Part shown: positions 1,395 to 31,519 of the stretch, in pieces
How positions within the stretch are numbered: position 1 is the first letter of the stretch
Layout: each line of letters begins with the position of its first letter
Assembly: GCF_019550915.1 (NCBI RefSeq)
Contig: NZ_JAHWCI010000009.1
Coordinates: 186,001-250,000, forward strand
From: Mumia sp. zg.B17
Lineage (GTDB): Bacteria > Actinomycetota > Actinomycetes > Propionibacteriales > Nocardioidaceae
DNA length: 64,000 bases
Direction: 5' to 3'
The notes under the pieces: generated by a model
Databases searched by the model: none
The model's input: the letters and a program-made list of their open reading frames with translations, nothing else
What the model was told of the DNA's origin: nothing
Position numbers and translations under genes: made by a program

Positions 1395-1457
1395 GCGCAG
1401 TCGGGCGAGTTCGCGATCGCAGGAGAGAATGGGCTGACCTGGCCGAAAGGGGTGCGC

Positions 1458-3170
1458 GTGGACTTCCTTCTCGTCGGCATCGCCGGGATCGTGTGCATCG
1501 TCGCGGTCACGGTGCTCTCACCCCGGGTCGGTGTCGCGGCGCCGCTGCTCCTCGTGCTGATCGGCGTCACGATCAGCCTGCTCCCGGCTGTGCCCGCGAT
1601 CGAGATCGAGCCGGAGCTGGTCCTCGCAGGGGTGCTGCCGCCGCTGCTGTACTCCACTGCCGTGTCGATGCCCGCGATGGACTTCCGTCGGGACTTCACC
1701 GCGATCAGCGGACTCTCCGTCCTCCTCGTCATCCTCAGTGCTCTCCTGCTGGGGCTGTACTTCCGTGCAGTGATCCCTGGCATCGAGCTCTCGACGGGCA
1801 TCGCGCTCGGGGCGATCGTGAGCCCGACGGACGCGGTCGCGACCTCGATCGTGCGCAGGCTCGGGGTGTCGCCGCGGGTCGTCACCGTGCTGGAGGGCGA
1901 GAGTCTCCTCAACGACGCCTCCGCCCTCGTGCTGCTCCGCTCGGCGATCGCGGCGACGGCGGCGTCGGTGTCGCTGTGGGGTGTGGCCGGCGACTTCGTG
2001 TGGGCGGTCGTCGCGGCCGTCGTCATCGGTCTGCTCGTCGGCGGCGCCAACCTCCGGGTCCGCGCGAGGATCACCGAGGCCCCGCTCAACACCGCCATCT
2101 CGTTCGTCGTCCCGTTCGTCGCCTACGTTCCCGCGGAGCAGCTCGGCGCCTCAGGCCTCGTCGCTGCCGTCACCGCCGGCCTGGTCACCGGACAGGGGGC
2201 GCCGAAGTATCTGCGGCCGCAGGACCGGCTCTACGAGGCCTCGAACTGGCGGACGATCGAGCTGCTGCTCGAGGGATCGGTCTTCCTGCTCATCGGCCTC
2301 GAGCTCTACGGGGTGCTGGAGGACGTCCGGGAGGCTCACAACAGCGCTCTGAACGCCCTGCTCGTCGGTGTCAGTGCGGGCGCGATCGTGCTCGTGATCC
2401 GCGCGGCGTACGTCCTCCCGCTCCTACTCTCGGCGCGCCGCCGCCGCCGCGCCGCGCCGCGGGTCCGCAAGCACATCGAGGGGATCCAGGACCGGCTCGA
2501 CTCGGGCGAGCTCCCGGGCCGGCAGCAGGTCCTGCGCAGACGGATCCGCCGGTCGCTGGCCGACGTGAACTACATCATGGCCGAGCCCCTCGGCTGGCGA
2601 GAGGGCGTCGTGCTCGTCTGGGCGGGTCTGCGTGGCGTCGTCACCCTCGCCGCGGCACAGTCATTGCCGCAGGAGACGCCCGAGCGTTCGTCGCTCATCC
2701 TGATCGCGTTCGTCGTCGCCGTCGGCAGCCTCCTCGTCCAGGGAGGGACCCTGCCCTGGGTCGTCCGGGCGTTGGGGCTCGCCGGCCAGGCCTCCGACGA
2801 CGGGTCCGAGCGACGGGCACTCTTCGGCGAGCTGGCGAAGGCGGCCGACGACCGCCTCGCGTCACCGGACCTGCGTCGGCCCGACGGCTCGCCGTACGAC
2901 GAGGACGTCATGGAGCACGCCCGGAGCCTGGTCACCATCCGGCTGTCGGAGGACGAGGAGGCGGTCGAGGACAGCTCCCGGATCGTCGCGCAGTACCACG
3001 AGCTGCGGCTCCTCATTGTCGCAGCCGAGCGGGAGGCGCTGCTGAGGGCGCGCGCCCTCGGCACGTACAGCTCGGCGACGCTGTCCGAGGCGCTGAACGT
3101 GCTCGACGCGGAGCAGATCAACACCGAGCTGAGGGCGGGCCCGATGCTCGACGACGACGCAGCCGACTGA
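1458..3170 (+). CDS. Na+/H+ antiporter, CPA1 (NhaP/NHE-like) family
   Basis: A 570-residue cation:proton antiporter of the cytoplasmic membrane. It has about 12 hydrophobic segments in the first 440 residues and a hydrophilic C-terminal tail of about 130 residues. The family motifs SPTDAVATS (Asp125) and EGESLLNDASALVL (Asn152-Asp153) are intact; the Asn-Asp pair is the ion-binding site in CPA1 proteins. GTG 1458 is preferred over GTG 1452 because GAAAGGGG at 1444-1451 then has usable spacing. It is followed 80 bp downstream by the receiver-flavoprotein gene on the same strand, suggesting one operon. The acidic, helical tail could be regulatory. Confidence 0.9.
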   Translation: MDFLLVGIAGIVCIVAVTVLSPRVGVAAPLLLVLIGVTISLLPAVPAIEIEPELVLAGVLPPLLYSTAVSMPAMDFRRDFTAISGLSVLLVILSALLLGLYFRAVIPGIELSTGIALGAIVSPTDAVATSIVRRLGVSPRVVTVLEGESLLNDASALVLLRSAIAATAASVSLWGVAGDFVWAVVAAVVIGLLVGGANLRVRARITEAPLNTAISFVVPFVAYVPAEQLGASGLVAAVTAGLVTGQGAPKYLRPQDRLYEASNWRTIELLLEGSVFLLIGLELYGVLEDVREAHNSALNALLVGVSAGAIVLVIRAAYVLPLLLSARRRRRAAPRVRKHIEGIQDRLDSGELPGRQQVLRRRIRRSLADVNYIMAEPLGWREGVVLVWAGLRGVVTLAAAQSLPQETPERSSLILIAFVVAVGSLLVQGGTLPWVVRALGLAGQASDDGSERRALFGELAKAADDRLASPDLRRPDGSPYDEDVMEHARSLVTIRLSEDEEAVEDSSRIVAQYHELRLLIVAAEREALLRARALGTYSSATLSEALNVLDAEQINTELRAGPMLDDDAAD

Positions 3171-3250
3171 TCGCGGCCGAGATCCAGCCTGGCCTCCGGG
3201 CTGCGGAGGCGCGACGATGGAGACCTCGGCCACCACCGCGAAGGACCGAC

Positions 3251-4939
3251 ATGACGGCAACGACCTCCCCCGGGCGCGTGGAGCACCGTGTCGCCCTCCT
3301 CACCGTGGACGACGATCCGGCGGTGTCGCGCTCGATCGCGCGCGACCTGCGGCGCCGCTACGGGTCGACCCACCGGATCGTGCGTGCCGAGTCCGGGGAG
3401 CAGGCTCTCGAGGCGCTGCGTGAGCTCAAGCTCCGTGGCGAGGAGGTGGCGGTCCTCCTGGCCGACCACCGGATGCCCCAGATGACGGGCATCGAGTTCC
3501 TCGAGAAGGCGATCGACCTGTTCCCCGCGGCGCGCCGCGTGCTCGTCACCGCCTATGCCGACACCGAGGCGGCGATCGACGCGATCAACCTCGTCGACCT
3601 GGACTACTACCTGCTCAAACCCTGGGACCCGCCGGACGAGAAGCTCTACCCGGTGATCGACGACCAGCTCGACGCCTGGTCCCGCACCGACCGCCACCCG
3701 GTGGGCGAGACGAAGCTGGTCGGGCACCGCTGGTCGGCCCGCTCGTCGGAGGTGCGCGAGTTCCTGGCACGCAACCAGGTGCCGTACCGGTGGTTCGCCT
3801 CCGACTCGGCCGAGGCACACGCGCTCTTCACGGCCGCGACGCTGGACGACCCGCAGCTCCCGGTCGTCGTCACGCCGGGCGGCGACGTGCTGGTGGCCCC
3901 CACCGACGCCGAGCTCGCCGACCGGGTCGGGTTGGTGACGCAGCCTCGGTCCGACTTCTACGACCTGATCGTCGTCGGCGGCGGGCCCGCCGGTCTCAGC
4001 GCGGCGCTCTACGGGGCGTCTGAGGGACTCAGAACCGTGCTCGTCGAGCGCACCGCCACCGGAGGGCAGGCGGGGCAGAGCTCACGGATCGAGAACTACC
4101 TCGGCTTCCCCGACGGCGTCTCGGGCGCCCAGCTTGCCGAGCGCGCACGGCGTCAGGCGCTCAAGTTCGGTGCGGAGATCGTCACCACCCGCGACGCCGT
4201 CGGGCTGGAGGTCAACGGGCCGGCACGCACCGTCCGCTTCCCCGATGGCAGCTCCCTCGACGCGCAGACGATCATCCTGGCCGGCGGAGTCACGTACCGG
4301 CGGCTCGACGGCCCCCTGTTGGACGACATGACTGGGCGAGGGCTCTACTACGGGTCGGCGCTGACCAATGTGGCCGCCTGCGCCGGCCAGGACGTGTACG
4401 TCGTCGGCGGGGCGAACTCCGCCGGCCAGGCCGCGATCGCGCTGGCCCGCGAGGCTCGCAGCGTGACCATCCTCGTCCGTGGGCCAGCGTTGACGCAGTC
4501 GATGTCGGCGTACCTCGTGGAGCAGGTCGAGGCGCACCCCCGGATCCGGGTGATGACGTCGACCGAGGTCGCGGCGGGATGCGGAGACGGGCACCTCGAG
4601 GGCCTGGTGCTGCGCGACCTCAGCACGGGACGTATGACCACGGTCCCGTGCGGGTGGGCGTTCGTCTTCATCGGCGCCGTGCCGCGGACGGAGTGGCTCG
4701 ACGGGGTGGTCGTGCGCGACCGCCACGGGTTCGTCCCGACGGGCCCCGACCTCCTGCAGGACGGCGCGCGACCACCGGGGTGGACGCTCGACCGGGTGCC
4801 GTACCACCTCGAGAGCAGCGTGCCCGGAATCTTCGCCGCCGGAGACGTCCGTGCGGAGTCGGCGAAGAGGGTCGCCTCCGCCGTCGGAGAAGGAGCCATG
4901 GCCGTGATGCTGGTGCACCGCTACCTGGAGCAGCTGTGA
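3251..4939 (+). CDS. Fused response-regulator receiver / glutaredoxin-like / thioredoxin-reductase-like FAD protein
   Basis: A 562-residue three-part protein. Residues 13-130 form a receiver domain with acidic pocket Asp20-Asp22, probable phospho-acceptor Asp72 (LLADHRMP), Thr100 and Lys123. Residues 155-228 resemble a glutaredoxin fold (FLARNQVPYRWF, LPVVVTPGG with cis-Pro), but the CPYC position reads WSAR. Residues 236-562 form a thioredoxin-reductase-like flavoprotein with FAD motif GGGPAG (243-248), NAD(P)H motif GGANSAG (386-392) and a C-terminal GIFAAGDVR. The position of the reductase CATC motif reads GSAL (368-371). Oxidoreductase chemistry on a disulfide is therefore unlikely. Its stop overlaps the kinase start by GTGA, so the two are translationally coupled and are probable signalling partners. 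Confidence 0.88.
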   Translation: MTATTSPGRVEHRVALLTVDDDPAVSRSIARDLRRRYGSTHRIVRAESGEQALEALRELKLRGEEVAVLLADHRMPQMTGIEFLEKAIDLFPAARRVLVTAYADTEAAIDAINLVDLDYYLLKPWDPPDEKLYPVIDDQLDAWSRTDRHPVGETKLVGHRWSARSSEVREFLARNQVPYRWFASDSAEAHALFTAATLDDPQLPVVVTPGGDVLVAPTDAELADRVGLVTQPRSDFYDLIVVGGGPAGLSAALYGASEGLRTVLVERTATGGQAGQSSRIENYLGFPDGVSGAQLAERARRQALKFGAEIVTTRDAVGLEVNGPARTVRFPDGSSLDAQTIILAGGVTYRRLDGPLLDDMTGRGLYYGSALTNVAACAGQDVYVVGGANSAGQAAIALAREARSVTILVRGPALTQSMSAYLVEQVEAHPRIRVMTSTEVAAGCGDGHLEGLVLRDLSTGRMTTVPCGWAFVFIGAVPRTEWLDGVVVRDRHGFVPTGPDLLQDGARPPGWTLDRVPYHLESSVPGIFAAGDVRAESAKRVASAVGEGAMAVMLVHRYLEQL

Positions 4940-6369
4940 GCACGCCCGAGCCGTTGCCGTGCGACGTCGCCGAGCTGCGCCGGATGTTCCTGTTCGAGCG
5001 CCTCGAGGACTGGCAGCTGGCGTGGCTGTGCGAGCACGGCCGGGTGGAGCACGCGAAGCCGGGATGGCTCATCCGCGAGGGCGATCCGGCGACGTGCTTC
5101 TACGTGATGCTGGAGGGGGAGATCGCCCTCTATCGCACGGTCGGCGGTGACGACGTCGAGACCTCCCGGACCGCCCGGGCCGGCGTGTACACCGGAGCCT
5201 GGTCGGCGTACCTGGGGGACCGTGCTCCGCAGGTGTACACCGGCTCGACCAAGGTGCTGGAGCCGTCGCGGTTCTTCGTCCTGGACGCCGCCGACTTCGC
5301 CAAGCTGATGGCCGACTGGTTCCCGATGGCGGTGCACCTCCTCGAGGGCCTCTTCTTCGGGACGCGCAACACCCAGGAGGCGGTCGGGCAGCGTGAGCGG
5401 CTGCTGGCTCTGGGGTCCTTGTCGGCCGGCCTCACCCACGAGCTCAACAATCCCGCGTCCGCGGCCGTGCGCGCGACCGCGACACTGCGCGAGCGGGTCG
5501 CGGCGATGCGCCACAAGCTCGCGATGATCGCCGAGGGCACCCACGACCGCGAGACGATCACCGCGCTGATGGCGCTCCAGGAGGACGCACTGGCGCGTCG
5601 CGCCGACGCCGTATCGGCGGACGTGCTCGGTGTCCTCGAGGCGTCCGACCTCGAGGACCGGCTCGCCGACTGGCTCGACGACCACGGGATCGAGAACGGT
5701 TGGGAGATCGCCCCGGTGCTCGTGCAGGGCGGCATCGACGAGACGTGGCTCGACGCCGCGGCGGCCCGGGTGGACCCCAGCGCGCTCGCCGGCGCGATGC
5801 GCTGGCTCGGCTACACGCTCGAGACCGAGGAGCTGATCGCCGAGATCGAGGATGCGACCAACCGGGTGTCGACCCTGGTCAACGCGGCGAAGCAGTACTC
5901 CCAGCTCGACCGCGCCCCGTTCGTCCGCACCGACGTCCACGAGCTGCTCGACGCGACCCTGCTGATGCTGCAGATGAAGCTGCGCGGCATCACCGTGGTC
6001 AAGCACTACGACCGCAGCATCGCGCCCGTCCCGATGTTCGCGGCGGAGATGAACCAGGTCTGGACCAACTTGATCGTGAACGCGGCACAGGCGATGGCGG
6101 GAGACGGGACCCTGACTCTCACCACGCGTCGCGTGGAGGACTGGTGCGAGGTGGAGGTCGCGGACACCGGTCCGGGGATCACGCCGGAGAACCAGGAGCG
6201 GATCTTCGAGCCGTTCTTCACGACCAAGGCCGTCGGCGAAGGGACGGGACTGGGGCTCGACATCTCCTGGCGGATCGTGGTCAGGAAGCACCATGGTGAC
6301 CTGACGGTGGAGTCGGAGCCCGGCAGCACCCGCTTCACGGTCCGCCTCCCGTACGACGCGGCCGGCTGA
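4936..6369 (+). CDS. Histidine kinase with N-terminal cyclic-nucleotide-binding-type domain
   Basis: A 477-residue soluble kinase with no membrane segment. Residues 15-135 resemble a cNMP/CRP-type sensor domain (GEIALYRTVGG). Residues 160-330 contain the dimerisation/phospho-acceptor helix with His168 in LTHELNNP, followed by an unusually long helical insert. Residues 335-475 form the HATPase domain: N-box NLIVNAAQAM, G1 DTGPGI (Asp410), G2 GEGTGLGLDIS. GTG 4936 overlaps the previous stop by four bases. It most likely phosphorylates Asp72 of the flavoprotein. The cNMP arginine motif is not clear, so the ligand may not be cAMP. It is the last gene of the antiporter operon. Confidence 0.9.
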   Translation: MSTPEPLPCDVAELRRMFLFERLEDWQLAWLCEHGRVEHAKPGWLIREGDPATCFYVMLEGEIALYRTVGGDDVETSRTARAGVYTGAWSAYLGDRAPQVYTGSTKVLEPSRFFVLDAADFAKLMADWFPMAVHLLEGLFFGTRNTQEAVGQRERLLALGSLSAGLTHELNNPASAAVRATATLRERVAAMRHKLAMIAEGTHDRETITALMALQEDALARRADAVSADVLGVLEASDLEDRLADWLDDHGIENGWEIAPVLVQGGIDETWLDAAAARVDPSALAGAMRWLGYTLETEELIAEIEDATNRVSTLVNAAKQYSQLDRAPFVRTDVHELLDATLLMLQMKLRGITVVKHYDRSIAPVPMFAAEMNQVWTNLIVNAAQAMAGDGTLTLTTRRVEDWCEVEVADTGPGITPENQERIFEPFFTTKAVGEGTGLGLDISWRIVVRKHHGDLTVESEPGSTRFTVRLPYDAAG

Positions 6370-6371
6370 CC

Positions 6372-6468
6372 CCCTCCCGTCCCCGAGCGTCCCTCCCGTC
6401 CCCGTCCCTCCCGTCCCCGAGCGTCCCTCCCGTCCCCGTCCCTCCCGTCCCCGTCCCTCCCGTCCCCG
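6372..6468. repeat. Six tandem copies of CCCTCCCGTCCCCG
   Basis: Six perfect 14-base units start at 6372, 6391, 6406, 6425, 6440 and 6455. The linkers are AGCGT, T, AGCGT, T, T, so 15- and 19-base periods are mixed. The array follows the kinase stop directly and runs into the dispersed palindrome at 6467. It is pyrimidine-rich on the plus strand and could form G-quadruplex or slipped structures on the other strand. Confidence 0.9.
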
Positions 6469-29158: not shown

Positions 29159-30565
29159 ATGTCCGTGACCGACCCGATTCCCACCGGTGTCCCCACTCGT
29201 CCAGGACCGCGGCCGCGCGTCGTGGTGCCGTACCCGCGCCTGACCCCCGGGCTCCGTCGCTACTTCGCGACCGAGGGTGGGGGCGCCACGCTCCTGCTGG
29301 CCGCGTCGGCCGCCGCGCTGGTCTGGGCCAACCTTCCGGGCGAGTCGTACGAGCACCTCTGGGAGACCGCGACGACCCTCGAGGTGGGGAGCTGGGGCGT
29401 GCACCTGTCCCTGCACCACTGGGTCAACGACGCCTTGATGGCGATCTTCTTCCTCGTCGTCGGACTCGAGGTCAACCGAGAGCTGACCGTCGGCGAGCTG
29501 CGCAGCTTCCGTGCCGCGTCGGTCCCGCTGTTCGCCGCGGTCGGAGGTCTTGTCGTCCCGATCGCTCTCTATCTCCTCATCGCGCCCTCGGGGCCGGACT
29601 CGGCGGGCTGGGGCGTCCCGATGTCGACCGACACCGCGTTCGTGATCGGCGTGCTCGCCCTCGTCGGCCCGCGGTGCCCCGACCAGCTGCGGGTCTTCCT
29701 CCTCACGCTCGCGATCTTCGACGACATCGGCGCGATCGCGCTCCTCGGCGCGTTCTACGCCGACGACCTGTCGATCAAGGCGCTCGTGCTGAGCGGTGTC
29801 CTCGTCGCGGTCCTGTTCGGGATGCGGTGGGTCGGCATCTGGCAGATCCCCCCGTACATCCTCGTCGGCATCGGGCTCTGGGTCACCGTCCTCGAGTCGG
29901 GCCTGCACCCGACCCTCGCGGGTGTCCTGGTCGGCCTGTCGGTCCCGACCCGACGGCGCGGTCGCGAGGACGAGGTCAGGCGCTACCTGGGGTTCTACGG
30001 TCGTGCGCTGATCGAGGACCTCGAGTCGTCGCGGTCGCGCCTGGCCGTCACCGCCGTGCGCTCGGCCATCCCCACCAGCGACCGGCTGCTCGACGCGCTC
30101 CACCCGCTCAGCTCGTACCTGATCGTGCCGTTGTTCGGTCTGGCCAACGCAGGCGTGATTCTGACCGGCGGCGCGATCGGCGACGCCATGAGCAGCCCGA
30201 TCACGCTCGGTGTGGTCGCCGGCCTGCTCGTCGGCAAGGTCGTCGGCGTCACCCTCGGGGCGTTCGTCGCGCTCCGCACCGGGCTCGGGTCGCTCCCCGG
30301 GCGCGTCCAGTACGGGCACGTGGTCGGCGGCGCCTTCCTCTGCGGCATCGGCTTCACCATCGCGCTGTTCGTCAGCGATCTCGCCTTCAACGACGAGGCG
30401 CTGCGCAACGAGGCCAAGGTCGGCATCCTCCTCGGGTCCTTGACTGCAGGGCTGGTCGGAGCGCTGGTGCTGCGCTACTTCGGCGACCGCCTGCCGTTGT
30501 GCTCTCCCGACGAGGCCGATGGGCCGCCTCCGCTACCGGAGGGGCCGTGGCGCGCGCCGGCGTGA
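29159..30565 (+). CDS. nhaA: Na+/H+ antiporter NhaA
   Basis: A 468-residue antiporter with 11-12 membrane segments. NhaA hallmarks are complete: HHWVNDALMAIFFLVVGLE, GVPMSTDTAFVIGVLAL with the Asp of TDTAF, and LTLAIFDDIGAIAL with the Asp-Asp ion site. The hydrophilic N-terminus of about 40 residues is longer than in E. coli, and the Pro-rich C-terminus (DEADGPPPLPEGPWRAPA) adds to the length. ATG 29159 and GTG 29165 are both possible. Its last 33 bases overlap the end of the convergent DsbA-like gene. Confidence 0.92.
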   Translation: MSVTDPIPTGVPTRPGPRPRVVVPYPRLTPGLRRYFATEGGGATLLLAASAAALVWANLPGESYEHLWETATTLEVGSWGVHLSLHHWVNDALMAIFFLVVGLEVNRELTVGELRSFRAASVPLFAAVGGLVVPIALYLLIAPSGPDSAGWGVPMSTDTAFVIGVLALVGPRCPDQLRVFLLTLAIFDDIGAIALLGAFYADDLSIKALVLSGVLVAVLFGMRWVGIWQIPPYILVGIGLWVTVLESGLHPTLAGVLVGLSVPTRRRGREDEVRRYLGFYGRALIEDLESSRSRLAVTAVRSAIPTSDRLLDALHPLSSYLIVPLFGLANAGVILTGGAIGDAMSSPITLGVVAGLLVGKVVGVTLGAFVALRTGLGSLPGRVQYGHVVGGAFLCGIGFTIALFVSDLAFNDEALRNEAKVGILLGSLTAGLVGALVLRYFGDRLPLCSPDEADGPPPLPEGPWRAPA

Positions 30566-31087
30566 CAGCCCGACGGCTTCGCGGAGGTCCTTGACGGTGA
30601 CCGCGTCGGTGTACGGCTCGCCGTTGACGAACAGCGTGGGGGTCCCGTGCACCCCTGCCTCGATGCCCTCGACGTAGTCGGCGCGGACCGCACTGGCGTA
30701 GGCCTGCGCCGCGTCACCGACGAGCTGGTCGGTGTCGAGGTCGAGCTGCTTCCCGTACCGGACGATCGAGGCGTCGTCGAGACTGTTCTGGTTCTTGAAC
30801 AGCAGACCGGCCATCGGCCAGAACGCTCCTTGGTTGCCGGCGGCCTCCGCGGCCAACGCGGCGGTGAGCGCGAACGGGTGCACCGTGAACAGCGGGAAAT
30901 GGCGCCAGATCAGGCGAACCTGTCCCTCGGAGCCCTCGATCAGGTCGTGCAGCACCGGCTTGGCCGCCCCGCAGTAGGGGCACTCGAAGTCCCCGAACTC
31001 CACGATCGTGAACGGCGCCTCAGGGTTGCCGTACGACCAGCGGAAGGCGAACTCGTTGTCGTGCTCGCGCTCCTCCTCGTCAGCCAT
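30533..31087 (-). CDS. DsbA-like thioredoxin-fold oxidoreductase
   Basis: A 184-residue thioredoxin-fold protein of the DsbA/Thioredoxin_4 family. The active site CPYC lies at Cys36-Cys39 in IVEFGDFECPYCG, and the cis-Pro is in VHGTPTLFVNGEPY. There is no signal peptide, so it acts in the cytoplasm. Its 3' end overlaps nhaA by 33 bp. From memory, some actinobacterial and proteobacterial NhaA proteins carry exactly such a thioredoxin-like domain fused at the C-terminus, so the two products may work together. The start at 31087 is the only ATG that fits the domain. Confidence 0.88.
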   Translation of the reverse strand: MADEEEREHDNEFAFRWSYGNPEAPFTIVEFGDFECPYCGAAKPVLHDLIEGSEGQVRLIWRHFPLFTVHPFALTAALAAEAAGNQGAFWPMAGLLFKNQNSLDDASIVRYGKQLDLDTDQLVGDAAQAYASAVRADYVEGIEAGVHGTPTLFVNGEPYTDAVTVKDLREAVGLSRRRAPRPLR

Positions 31088-31168
31088 GGCTCCATCGTGG
31101 CACGGGCTTCGACAGGTGGCGGGCGACCGGGCGACGTAGCCTGTGACGGGACCCGAAGGGGGGCTGCC

Positions 31169-31519
31169 ATGACGGACGGCATCGACGTGAGCGTGCCACC
31201 GAGCGGACCTGGGTGCGCGGAGTGCGACGCGGCCGACCCGCAGGGGTGGTGGTTCCACCTGAGGCGCTGCGCCCAGTGCGGGCACGTCGGCTGCTGCGAC
31301 TCCTCGCCGGCCGCGCACGCCACGGCCCACTGGAAAGCCACCGGGCACCGCTACGTCCAGTCGTACGAGCCGGGCGAGGACTGGTTCTACGACTACGAGG
31401 AGGAGTCGATCCTCACCGGCCCCCAGCTGGCGCCGCCGACCTCGCACCCGGACGACCAGCCGTCCCCGGGACCCGCCGGCCGGGTGCCTCGCGACTGGAT
31501 GATGCACGTACCGCGCTGA
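31169..31519 (+). CDS. UBP-type zinc-finger protein
   Basis: A 116-residue protein that is one UBP-type zinc finger plus a short Pro-rich tail. The Cys/His pattern is complete: CAEC, RRCAQCGHVGCCDSS, HATAHWKATGH, followed by SYEPGEDWFYDYEEE. In eukaryotes this finger binds the C-terminus of free ubiquitin; in actinobacteria its ligand is not known to me. It is divergent from the DsbA-like gene (81 bp). AGGGGGG precedes the ATG. Its place beside an antiporter and a redox protein echoes the 1458-6369 operon. Confidence 0.88.
   Translation: MTDGIDVSVPPSGPGCAECDAADPQGWWFHLRRCAQCGHVGCCDSSPAAHATAHWKATGHRYVQSYEPGEDWFYDYEEESILTGPQLAPPTSHPDDQPSPGPAGRVPRDWMMHVPR

Follow-up and report, generated by a model that had tools for sequence, protein, structure and literature searches.

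We analysed a 64,000-nucleotide stretch of the Mumia sp. zg.B17 genome (contig NZ_JAHWCI010000009.1, positions 186,001 to 250,000; hereafter the window), in which three co-directional genes encode a CPA1-type Na+/H+ antiporter, a response regulator with a flavoprotein output and a soluble histidine kinase. The kinase and the receiver-flavoprotein form a pair that is conserved across phyla, whereas the antiporter next to it in the window is not; in several lineages, pumps from unrelated families are neighbours of the pair or of its relatives. The explanation that we favour, with some reserve, is a two-component core with a redox-enzyme output, for which a zinc protein of the zf-UBP family is the usual accessory and antiporters are occasional clients. 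The pair itself is quite probably a flavoenzyme switched by phosphorylation.

A conserved kinase and receiver-flavoprotein pair

The genes at the start of the window are the following (positions are those of the window):

1452..3170, plus strand: CPA1-type Na+/H+ (or K+/H+) antiporter of 572 residues without a zf-UBP domain (PF00999, 164 bits; TIGR00831, 253 bits)
3251..4939, plus strand: response regulator with a flavoprotein output, made of receiver (REC), glutaredoxin-like and thioredoxin reductase (TrxR)-like domains (ATG start; Pfam)
4936..6369, plus strand: soluble histidine kinase with a domain like that of CRP or other cyclic nucleotide (cNMP)-binding proteins, an H-box and HATPase_c (GTG start; Pfam)

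The three open reading frames of the initial annotation are real: their positions match, and Pfam recovered Na_H_Exchanger in the first product, Response_reg and Pyr_redox_2 in the second, and cNMP_binding and HATPase_c in the third. The antiporter frame has in-frame GTG codons at both 1452 and 1458, the second of which had been taken as the start. It is separated by 80 nt (3171-3250) from the flavoprotein gene on the same strand, and the GTGA overlap described for the last two genes was confirmed at 4936-4939. Directly past the kinase stop codon, the sequence at 6372-6468 is GC-rich and repeats in tandem with periods of 34 and 15. A defence system was considered and rejected, as neither the antiporter, the flavoprotein nor the kinase had a PADLOC match. 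Gene calls outside homology matches were made with a home-made codon scorer and served for neighbourhood views only.

The neighbourhood of the flavoprotein gene was surveyed in 80 related loci, the best 80 of 579 confirmed in a contig scan, all with actinobacterial titles. The nearest named relative was Mumia quercus, whose flavoprotein is 86% identical. A kinase gene adjoined the flavoprotein gene in 79 of the 80 loci (78 by a strict rule, plus L021, in which the genes overlap); only L019 departed from this, and there the contig stops 135 nt downstream. We also searched a 246-genome sample of the same class, with thresholds of 1e-70 for the flavoprotein and 1e-50 for the kinase, and obtained a flavoprotein match in 131 genomes and a kinase match in 92. 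Among the 92 flavoprotein matches listed (most of the query covered, at least 52% identity), 87 lay no more than 500 nt from a kinase match, the other five being G022:C277, G131:C459 (gap 504 nt), G119:C443, G180:C23 and G143:C6. Nine partial flavoprotein matches (57-68% identity) were kept out of the 92; a kinase lay within 500 nt in eight of them and at 757 nt in the ninth. Seen from the kinase side, 96 of 107 matches in this sample adjoined a TrxR-like gene.

The pair extends beyond the actinobacteria to Deinococcota, Cyanobacteriota and Burkholderiales. Genes annotated 'FAD-dependent oxidoreductase' and 'ATP-binding protein' are paired in Deinococcus aetherius, Gloeothece, Caballeronia, Streptomyces and Tsukamurella, and kinase domains were confirmed in the first three (plasmid records). 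In Nostoc edaphicum the flavoprotein is present, and a receiver-kinase hybrid is encoded several genes from it. A second kinase with a cNMP domain was found near the pair in Deinococcus aetherius (L259) and Caballeronia sp. (L262), suggesting that two kinases may feed one receiver. A gene annotated 'Low temperature requirement protein A' lies near the flavoprotein gene on both the Deinococcus plasmid (L259, 11325-12554) and the Nostoc plasmid (L260, 12324-13553).

The catalytic residues of both partners are conserved as well. Receiver residues D20, D21, D22, D72, T100 and K123 were invariant in all 81 flavoprotein rows aligned (the window protein included), indicating that the receiver can be phosphorylated; Asp72, proposed earlier as its phospho-site, is among them. 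In the kinase, H168 (H-box), N378 (N-box), D410 (DxGxG) and G436-G440 (GTGLG) were invariant in 79 rows; the window kinase gave no match to Pfam HisKA. With the catalytic residues invariant on both sides, a phosphorelay from kinase to receiver is likely.

The flavin output and the input of the kinase

As the initial annotation had it, the output of the receiver is a flavoprotein instead of a DNA-binding domain. Response_reg covers residues 17-128 and Pyr_redox_2 residues 237-548 (98.7 bits; Pyr_redox, 34.1 bits), within a TrxR-like module that spans residues 237-561 and matches the dinucleotide folds for FAD and NAD(P). The glutaredoxin-like label given to the segment between them (about residues 150-232) received partial support. 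PF00462 matched four of seven such segments (window plus six relatives) with E values of 0.0004-0.006, all below the family cut-off, while the window segment, which is without any cysteine, had no Pfam match even at E 10. A CGHC motif does occur inside the glutaredoxin-like segment of L163 (9001-10662), a flavoprotein with a pseudo-receiver whose gene adjoins that of a CPA1 antiporter fused to zf-UBP.

The TrxR-like designation also held in part, for the FAD/NAD(P) module and not for the active site. An ordinary NADPH-thioredoxin reductase under phospho-control would fit with TIGR01292 being the best NCBIfam match of the flavoprotein, and with the thioredoxin gene that adjoins members of a related architecture (class C, below). 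However, the TIGR01292 score of 190.3 bits is far below the cut-off of 343.45, and no cysteine pair was found at the TrxB active-site position in 15 non-TrxB rows of one alignment or in 41 of another. Where the TrxB of the same genome reads CATC, the flavoprotein rows checked read G/A/S-A/S-x-x, and they carry VR- motifs instead of HRR, which we take to be the TrxB motif. The sequence thus already contradicts an ordinary TrxB output, and we rejected this reading as very improbable. Stray CxxC motifs lie elsewhere in three of the 81 rows that form class A (L021, L076 and L079) and in two of 41 further rows (L163 and L184). The ferredoxin-NADP reductase group presumably lacks CxxC in the same way. 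Cys377, the sole cysteine invariant in class A, is kept in 15 of 16 class C rows; it was dismissed as a general catalytic residue, being absent from class B rows, from L185 and from the Deinococcus protein. Without an active-site CxxC the flavoprotein cannot reduce thioredoxin in the manner of TrxB and must act on a partner directly.

Two related architectures share the flavin module. In class B the receiver is altered, at least one of five key residues being off in each of 12 receiver-matching loci (in L149 only the Thr deviates from the active receiver pattern), and a membrane nucleotide cyclase match adjoins the flavoprotein gene in eight of the 12 (L088 and L151-L157; PF00211 confirmed for L088, L151 and L157). 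One of these, L088 (7487-10610, contig C10 of G000), is the second receiver-like/TrxR-like gene of the window genome, 44% identical and followed by a membrane class III cyclase. In class C, a cNMP-like domain is fused directly to the flavoprotein in all 16 regions (L169-L184).

These architectures bear on the nature of the input. The kinase could be a cyclic-nucleotide sensor by which the flavoprotein is coupled to cAMP or some other cNMP. The cyclase genes of class B, the fused domain of class C and the Pfam cNMP_binding match in the kinase itself (residues 45-126, 35.1 bits against a cut-off of 27.5) are in keeping with such a role. The phosphate-binding cassette argues against it. All 79 kinases have Ala, Ser or Gly at what we take to be the position of the cyclic nucleotide-binding glutamate of CRP, and the presumed region of the cassette arginine is mostly Val or Thr, with Arg in seven. 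Read by eye, the cassette is altered in the kinases of other phyla too, although partly kept (GE in Gloeothece; GD, with an Arg one place off, in Deinococcus HK1). A cNMP-type sensor, as first annotated, therefore stands as a domain assignment, and the label is doubtful as to function: a canonical cAMP-sensing kinase is disfavoured, and cyclic-nucleotide sensing of any kind appears improbable. In this group of 79 kinases, Cys9 and Cys32 are invariant, which suggests a thiol signal rather than a cyclic nucleotide. They do not make a universal cysteine sensor, a candidate that we discarded, as both are absent from the other-phylum kinases examined and from the divergent actinobacterial kinases L185 and L186.

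The zf-UBP companion and the Na+/H+ antiporters

The most constant companion seen among these flavin modules is a zf-UBP protein. In 61 of the 80 loci (60 by script, plus L021) the kinase gene is immediately followed, on its own strand, by a gene for one of about 115 residues, and annotations of Streptomyces fungicidicus and Tsukamurella show the flavoprotein, 'ATP-binding protein' and 'UBP-type zinc finger' genes as a trio. In the 246-genome sample, 37 of 150 zf-UBP matches listed had a TrxR-like gene no further than 4 kb away, against about 0.3 expected. The kinase/flavoprotein locus of the window has no adjoining zf-UBP gene; the only PF02148 match of the genome is 25 kb away, in a second cluster:

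29159..30565, plus strand: NhaA Na+/H+ antiporter, a possible second antiporter partner (PF06965, 447 bits)
30533..31087, minus strand: DsbA-family thioredoxin-fold protein, between NhaA and zf-UBP (PF13462/PF01323)
31169..31519, plus strand: zf-UBP protein of 116 residues, of the kinase-linked type (Pfam, 47.9 bits)

This zf-UBP protein carries a C-terminal extension, GPxLAPP...PGPAGRVPxDW, whose marked columns are 90-98% conserved in 63 zf-UBP rows of the 80-locus set. The same columns are gaps in nine rows linked to flavoproteins with a fused cyclic nucleotide-binding (CNB) domain and in 24 CPA1-fused rows (duplicates included). Given this kinase-type extension, the zf-UBP protein of the window is probably the displaced third partner of the pair. 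A selenocysteine-like TGA in zf-UBP matches was checked in one case, L181, and is an ordinary stop that ends the match.

The three-gene grouping of the window had been described as recurrent in actinobacteria. For this antiporter it is not: the neighbourhood survey found that linkage of the trio is not conserved, and that part of the claim falls. What stands is that other antiporters lie near such modules. The window antiporter belongs to a clade of CPA1 proteins without zf-UBP (support 1.0) and scores 253.4 bits against TIGR00831 (a_cpa1; cut-off 279.6). By contrast, 22 distinct CPA1 antiporters have a zf-UBP domain in the same open frame, a number that gives no rate, since most of these regions were picked for a zf-UBP in a long frame. 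Pfam confirmed five such fusions (L163, L189, L201, L254 and, in addition to the 22, L277). Four of the 22 adjoin a TrxR-like gene: L163, L168 and L254, in which the antiporter gene is upstream on the same strand, and L201, in which it is divergent from a full REC-TrxR/kinase pair; L163 and L168 had been fetched for their TrxR gene. UBP-fused antiporters do not form a single clade in the tree, implying that fusion or loss occurred more than once. Of the 54 CPA1 matches in the genome sample, four (the window being one of them) had a listed TrxR-like gene no more than 3 kb away, where about 0.06 were expected.

NhaA, an unrelated Na+/H+ antiporter, shows similar ties. The window holds NhaA, DsbA-family and zf-UBP genes side by side (29159-31519), and in relatives the C-terminus of NhaA is fused to DsbA. 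In ten regions, all of one genus (g41), the pair is preceded on its own strand by NhaA, which in nine of the ten shares an open frame with DsbA; in the other two of the 12 g41 genomes with a listed pair, NhaA is absent from the pair region. The positions of NhaA were compared with the other lists by eye, among the matches listed. A conserved frame of 266 residues, with the look of an alpha/beta hydrolase by eye, stands between NhaA-DsbA and REC-TrxR in nine of the ten loci (L267-L275). In L277 (7180-10964) a CPA1-zfUBP gene is directly upstream of an NhaA-DsbA gene on the same strand. A Na+/H+ antiporter thus adjoins the pair in other lineages as NhaA(-DsbA) in the ten regions of one genus, as CPA1-UBP in L201 and as CPA1 in L035. 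In Caballeronia sp. NK8 (L262, 9053-10585), a membrane gene of the PF00361 (NuoM/Mrp-antiporter) type is convergent with the kinase gene at a distance of 5 nt and may add a third antiporter-like family to those seen at such loci.

The occurrence of CPA1-zfUBP and NhaA-DsbA fusions beside REC-TrxR or pseudo-REC-TrxR genes makes a redox link to Na+/H+ antiport more than a guess. Since zf-UBP or DsbA domains occur on members of two unrelated antiporter families, which also adjoin these modules, antiporters are plausible clients. Several findings weigh against this interpretation. CPA1 occurs in one of the 80 pair loci (R. hoagii, 34% identical, downstream of the kinase). The closest relatives of the window antiporter (15 of its 20 best matches outside the window, 42-55% identity) were examined in regions of about 20 kb each, and none of the 15 contains the flavoprotein, kinase or zf-UBP; in one of these regions, L251, a thioredoxin-like gene adjoins the antiporter. 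In M. quercus, where both flanks are syntenic, a divergent gene for the alkaline phosphatase PhoX (L007, 7636-9624) replaces the antiporter. The Deinococcus, Nostoc, Gloeothece and Caballeronia records, in which the gene table is incomplete, show no annotated CPA1 or NhaA gene beside the pair. By our reckoning the antiporter-linked cases are few, about five independent events (the window, R. hoagii, G022, one clade of three and one genus), the chance expectations given above assume 5.2-Mb genomes and uniform placement, and the adjacency counts include close relatives. Nor does the zf-UBP gene itself always follow the kinase directly: 19 of the 80 loci lack it there, of which four end within 1.2 kb. 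Finally, the class C neighbourhoods point to protein damage, not ions. There, zf-UBP is directly upstream in nine and ClpB close by in ten of the 16 regions; L181 (4198-10628) runs DnaJ, a MerR-family (HspR-like) regulator, ClpB, thioredoxin, zf-UBP and the cNMP-domain TrxR-like flavoprotein; L169, L172, L174, L178, L179, L182 and L184 have ClpB, thioredoxin, zf-UBP and flavoprotein in common; and a Paraburkholderia record brings together flavoprotein, zf-UBP, Clp ATPase and Hsp20.

The two linkage counts, the PhoX gene of M. quercus, the class C neighbourhoods and the records from other phyla are what would be expected if the antiporter were a bystander, the kinase, REC-TrxR protein and zf-UBP serving a general oxidative or protein-damage response and the antiporter neighbours being chance or lineage-specific hitchhikers. 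Such an account meets difficulty with two unrelated antiporter families that have zf-UBP or DsbA domains and adjoin the modules above a rough chance estimate, and with the kinase-type zf-UBP of the window genome, which adjoins NhaA. We consider it rather unlikely. Antiport control as a real function of these modules is, from their gene order and fusions, possible, and we advance it tentatively; control of the window's own CPA1 antiporter, based on adjacency in one genome, is more doubtful still.

Proposed mechanism and comparison with known systems

In the two-component model that we favour, the soluble CRP-domain kinase would phosphorylate the receiver at Asp72 through His168, and receiver phosphorylation would change how the attached TrxR-like flavoprotein is arranged or how active it is. 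This flavoprotein is expected to bind FAD and NAD(P)H and would hand on either electrons or a redox-dependent conformation straight to a partner protein. The zf-UBP zinc protein would be the usual partner or adaptor, and Na+/H+ antiporters recurrent but non-obligatory clients, reached via a fused zf-UBP (CPA1), via a fused DsbA (NhaA) or, as in the window, by adjacency. A more specific proposal, which we put forward with due caution, is that actinobacteria possess redox-controlled Na+/H+ antiport, in which a CxxC-less flavoprotein, switched by phosphorylation or by a ligand, acts via zf-UBP or DsbA modules attached independently to CPA1 and NhaA. The window would then hold a scattered version of this system, with the pair and CPA1 at 1.5-6.4 kb and zf-UBP, DsbA and NhaA at 29-31.5 kb.

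If phosphorylation switches the flavoenzyme directly, a two-component system would have an output on cell redox or ion balance that does not wait for transcription. If antiporters are clients, the redox and zinc tails on two unrelated Na+/H+ families would be explained, and proton/sodium exchange would be tied to the NAD(P)H state. Domains of the zf-UBP type are otherwise known from ubiquitin biology, and the model would give them a bacterial role. An arginine of USP5 presumably holds the C-terminus of ubiquitin; this pocket position aligns with His/Val in the window zf-UBP, which therefore lacks that mark of ubiquitin binding. Its Cys/His ligands and aromatic residues align in part with those of the ubiquitin-binding zf-UBP of USP5 and of the bacterial structure 2ida.

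The REC-thioredoxin reductase architecture is already in print, an archaeal census having named it the 'Mycobacterium-like combination' (PMC5847659). Those regulators have the domain order of the window flavoprotein, a receiver fused to a TrxR-like output; the parts of the census available to us name the architecture only and give no partner kinase, zf-UBP, antiporter linkage or mechanism. In searches of the open-access literature, a coverage that leaves most subscription papers outside, nothing was recognised that describes the zf-UBP or antiporter linkage.

Chains of low-Mr TrxB (PDB 2a87 and 7jyp) align with the flavoprotein over about residues 237-560, and the TrxR-fold ferredoxin-NADP reductases (PDB 3ab1, 3lzw and 5xhu) over all or part of the same range. 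Compared with both, the window flavoprotein has extra REC and glutaredoxin-like domains, and the family motifs GGQAGxSS, NSAGQAA, MSxYL and KRVASAVGEG differ from the TrxB of its own genome. NCBI gives a Deinococcus aquaticus protein the name 'Cyclic nucleotide-binding domain-containing thioredoxin-disulfide reductase'. It has the same glutaredoxin-like/TrxR-like module and likewise no active-site CxxC, but its CNB input is fused directly, whereas the window system uses a kinase and a receiver. The NhaA-DsbA and CPA1-zfUBP fusions, for their part, join a Na+/H+ antiporter to a redox or zinc module and are encoded next to TrxR-like genes; the window CPA1 has neither fusion, and in the window genome NhaA, DsbA and zf-UBP are separate neighbours.

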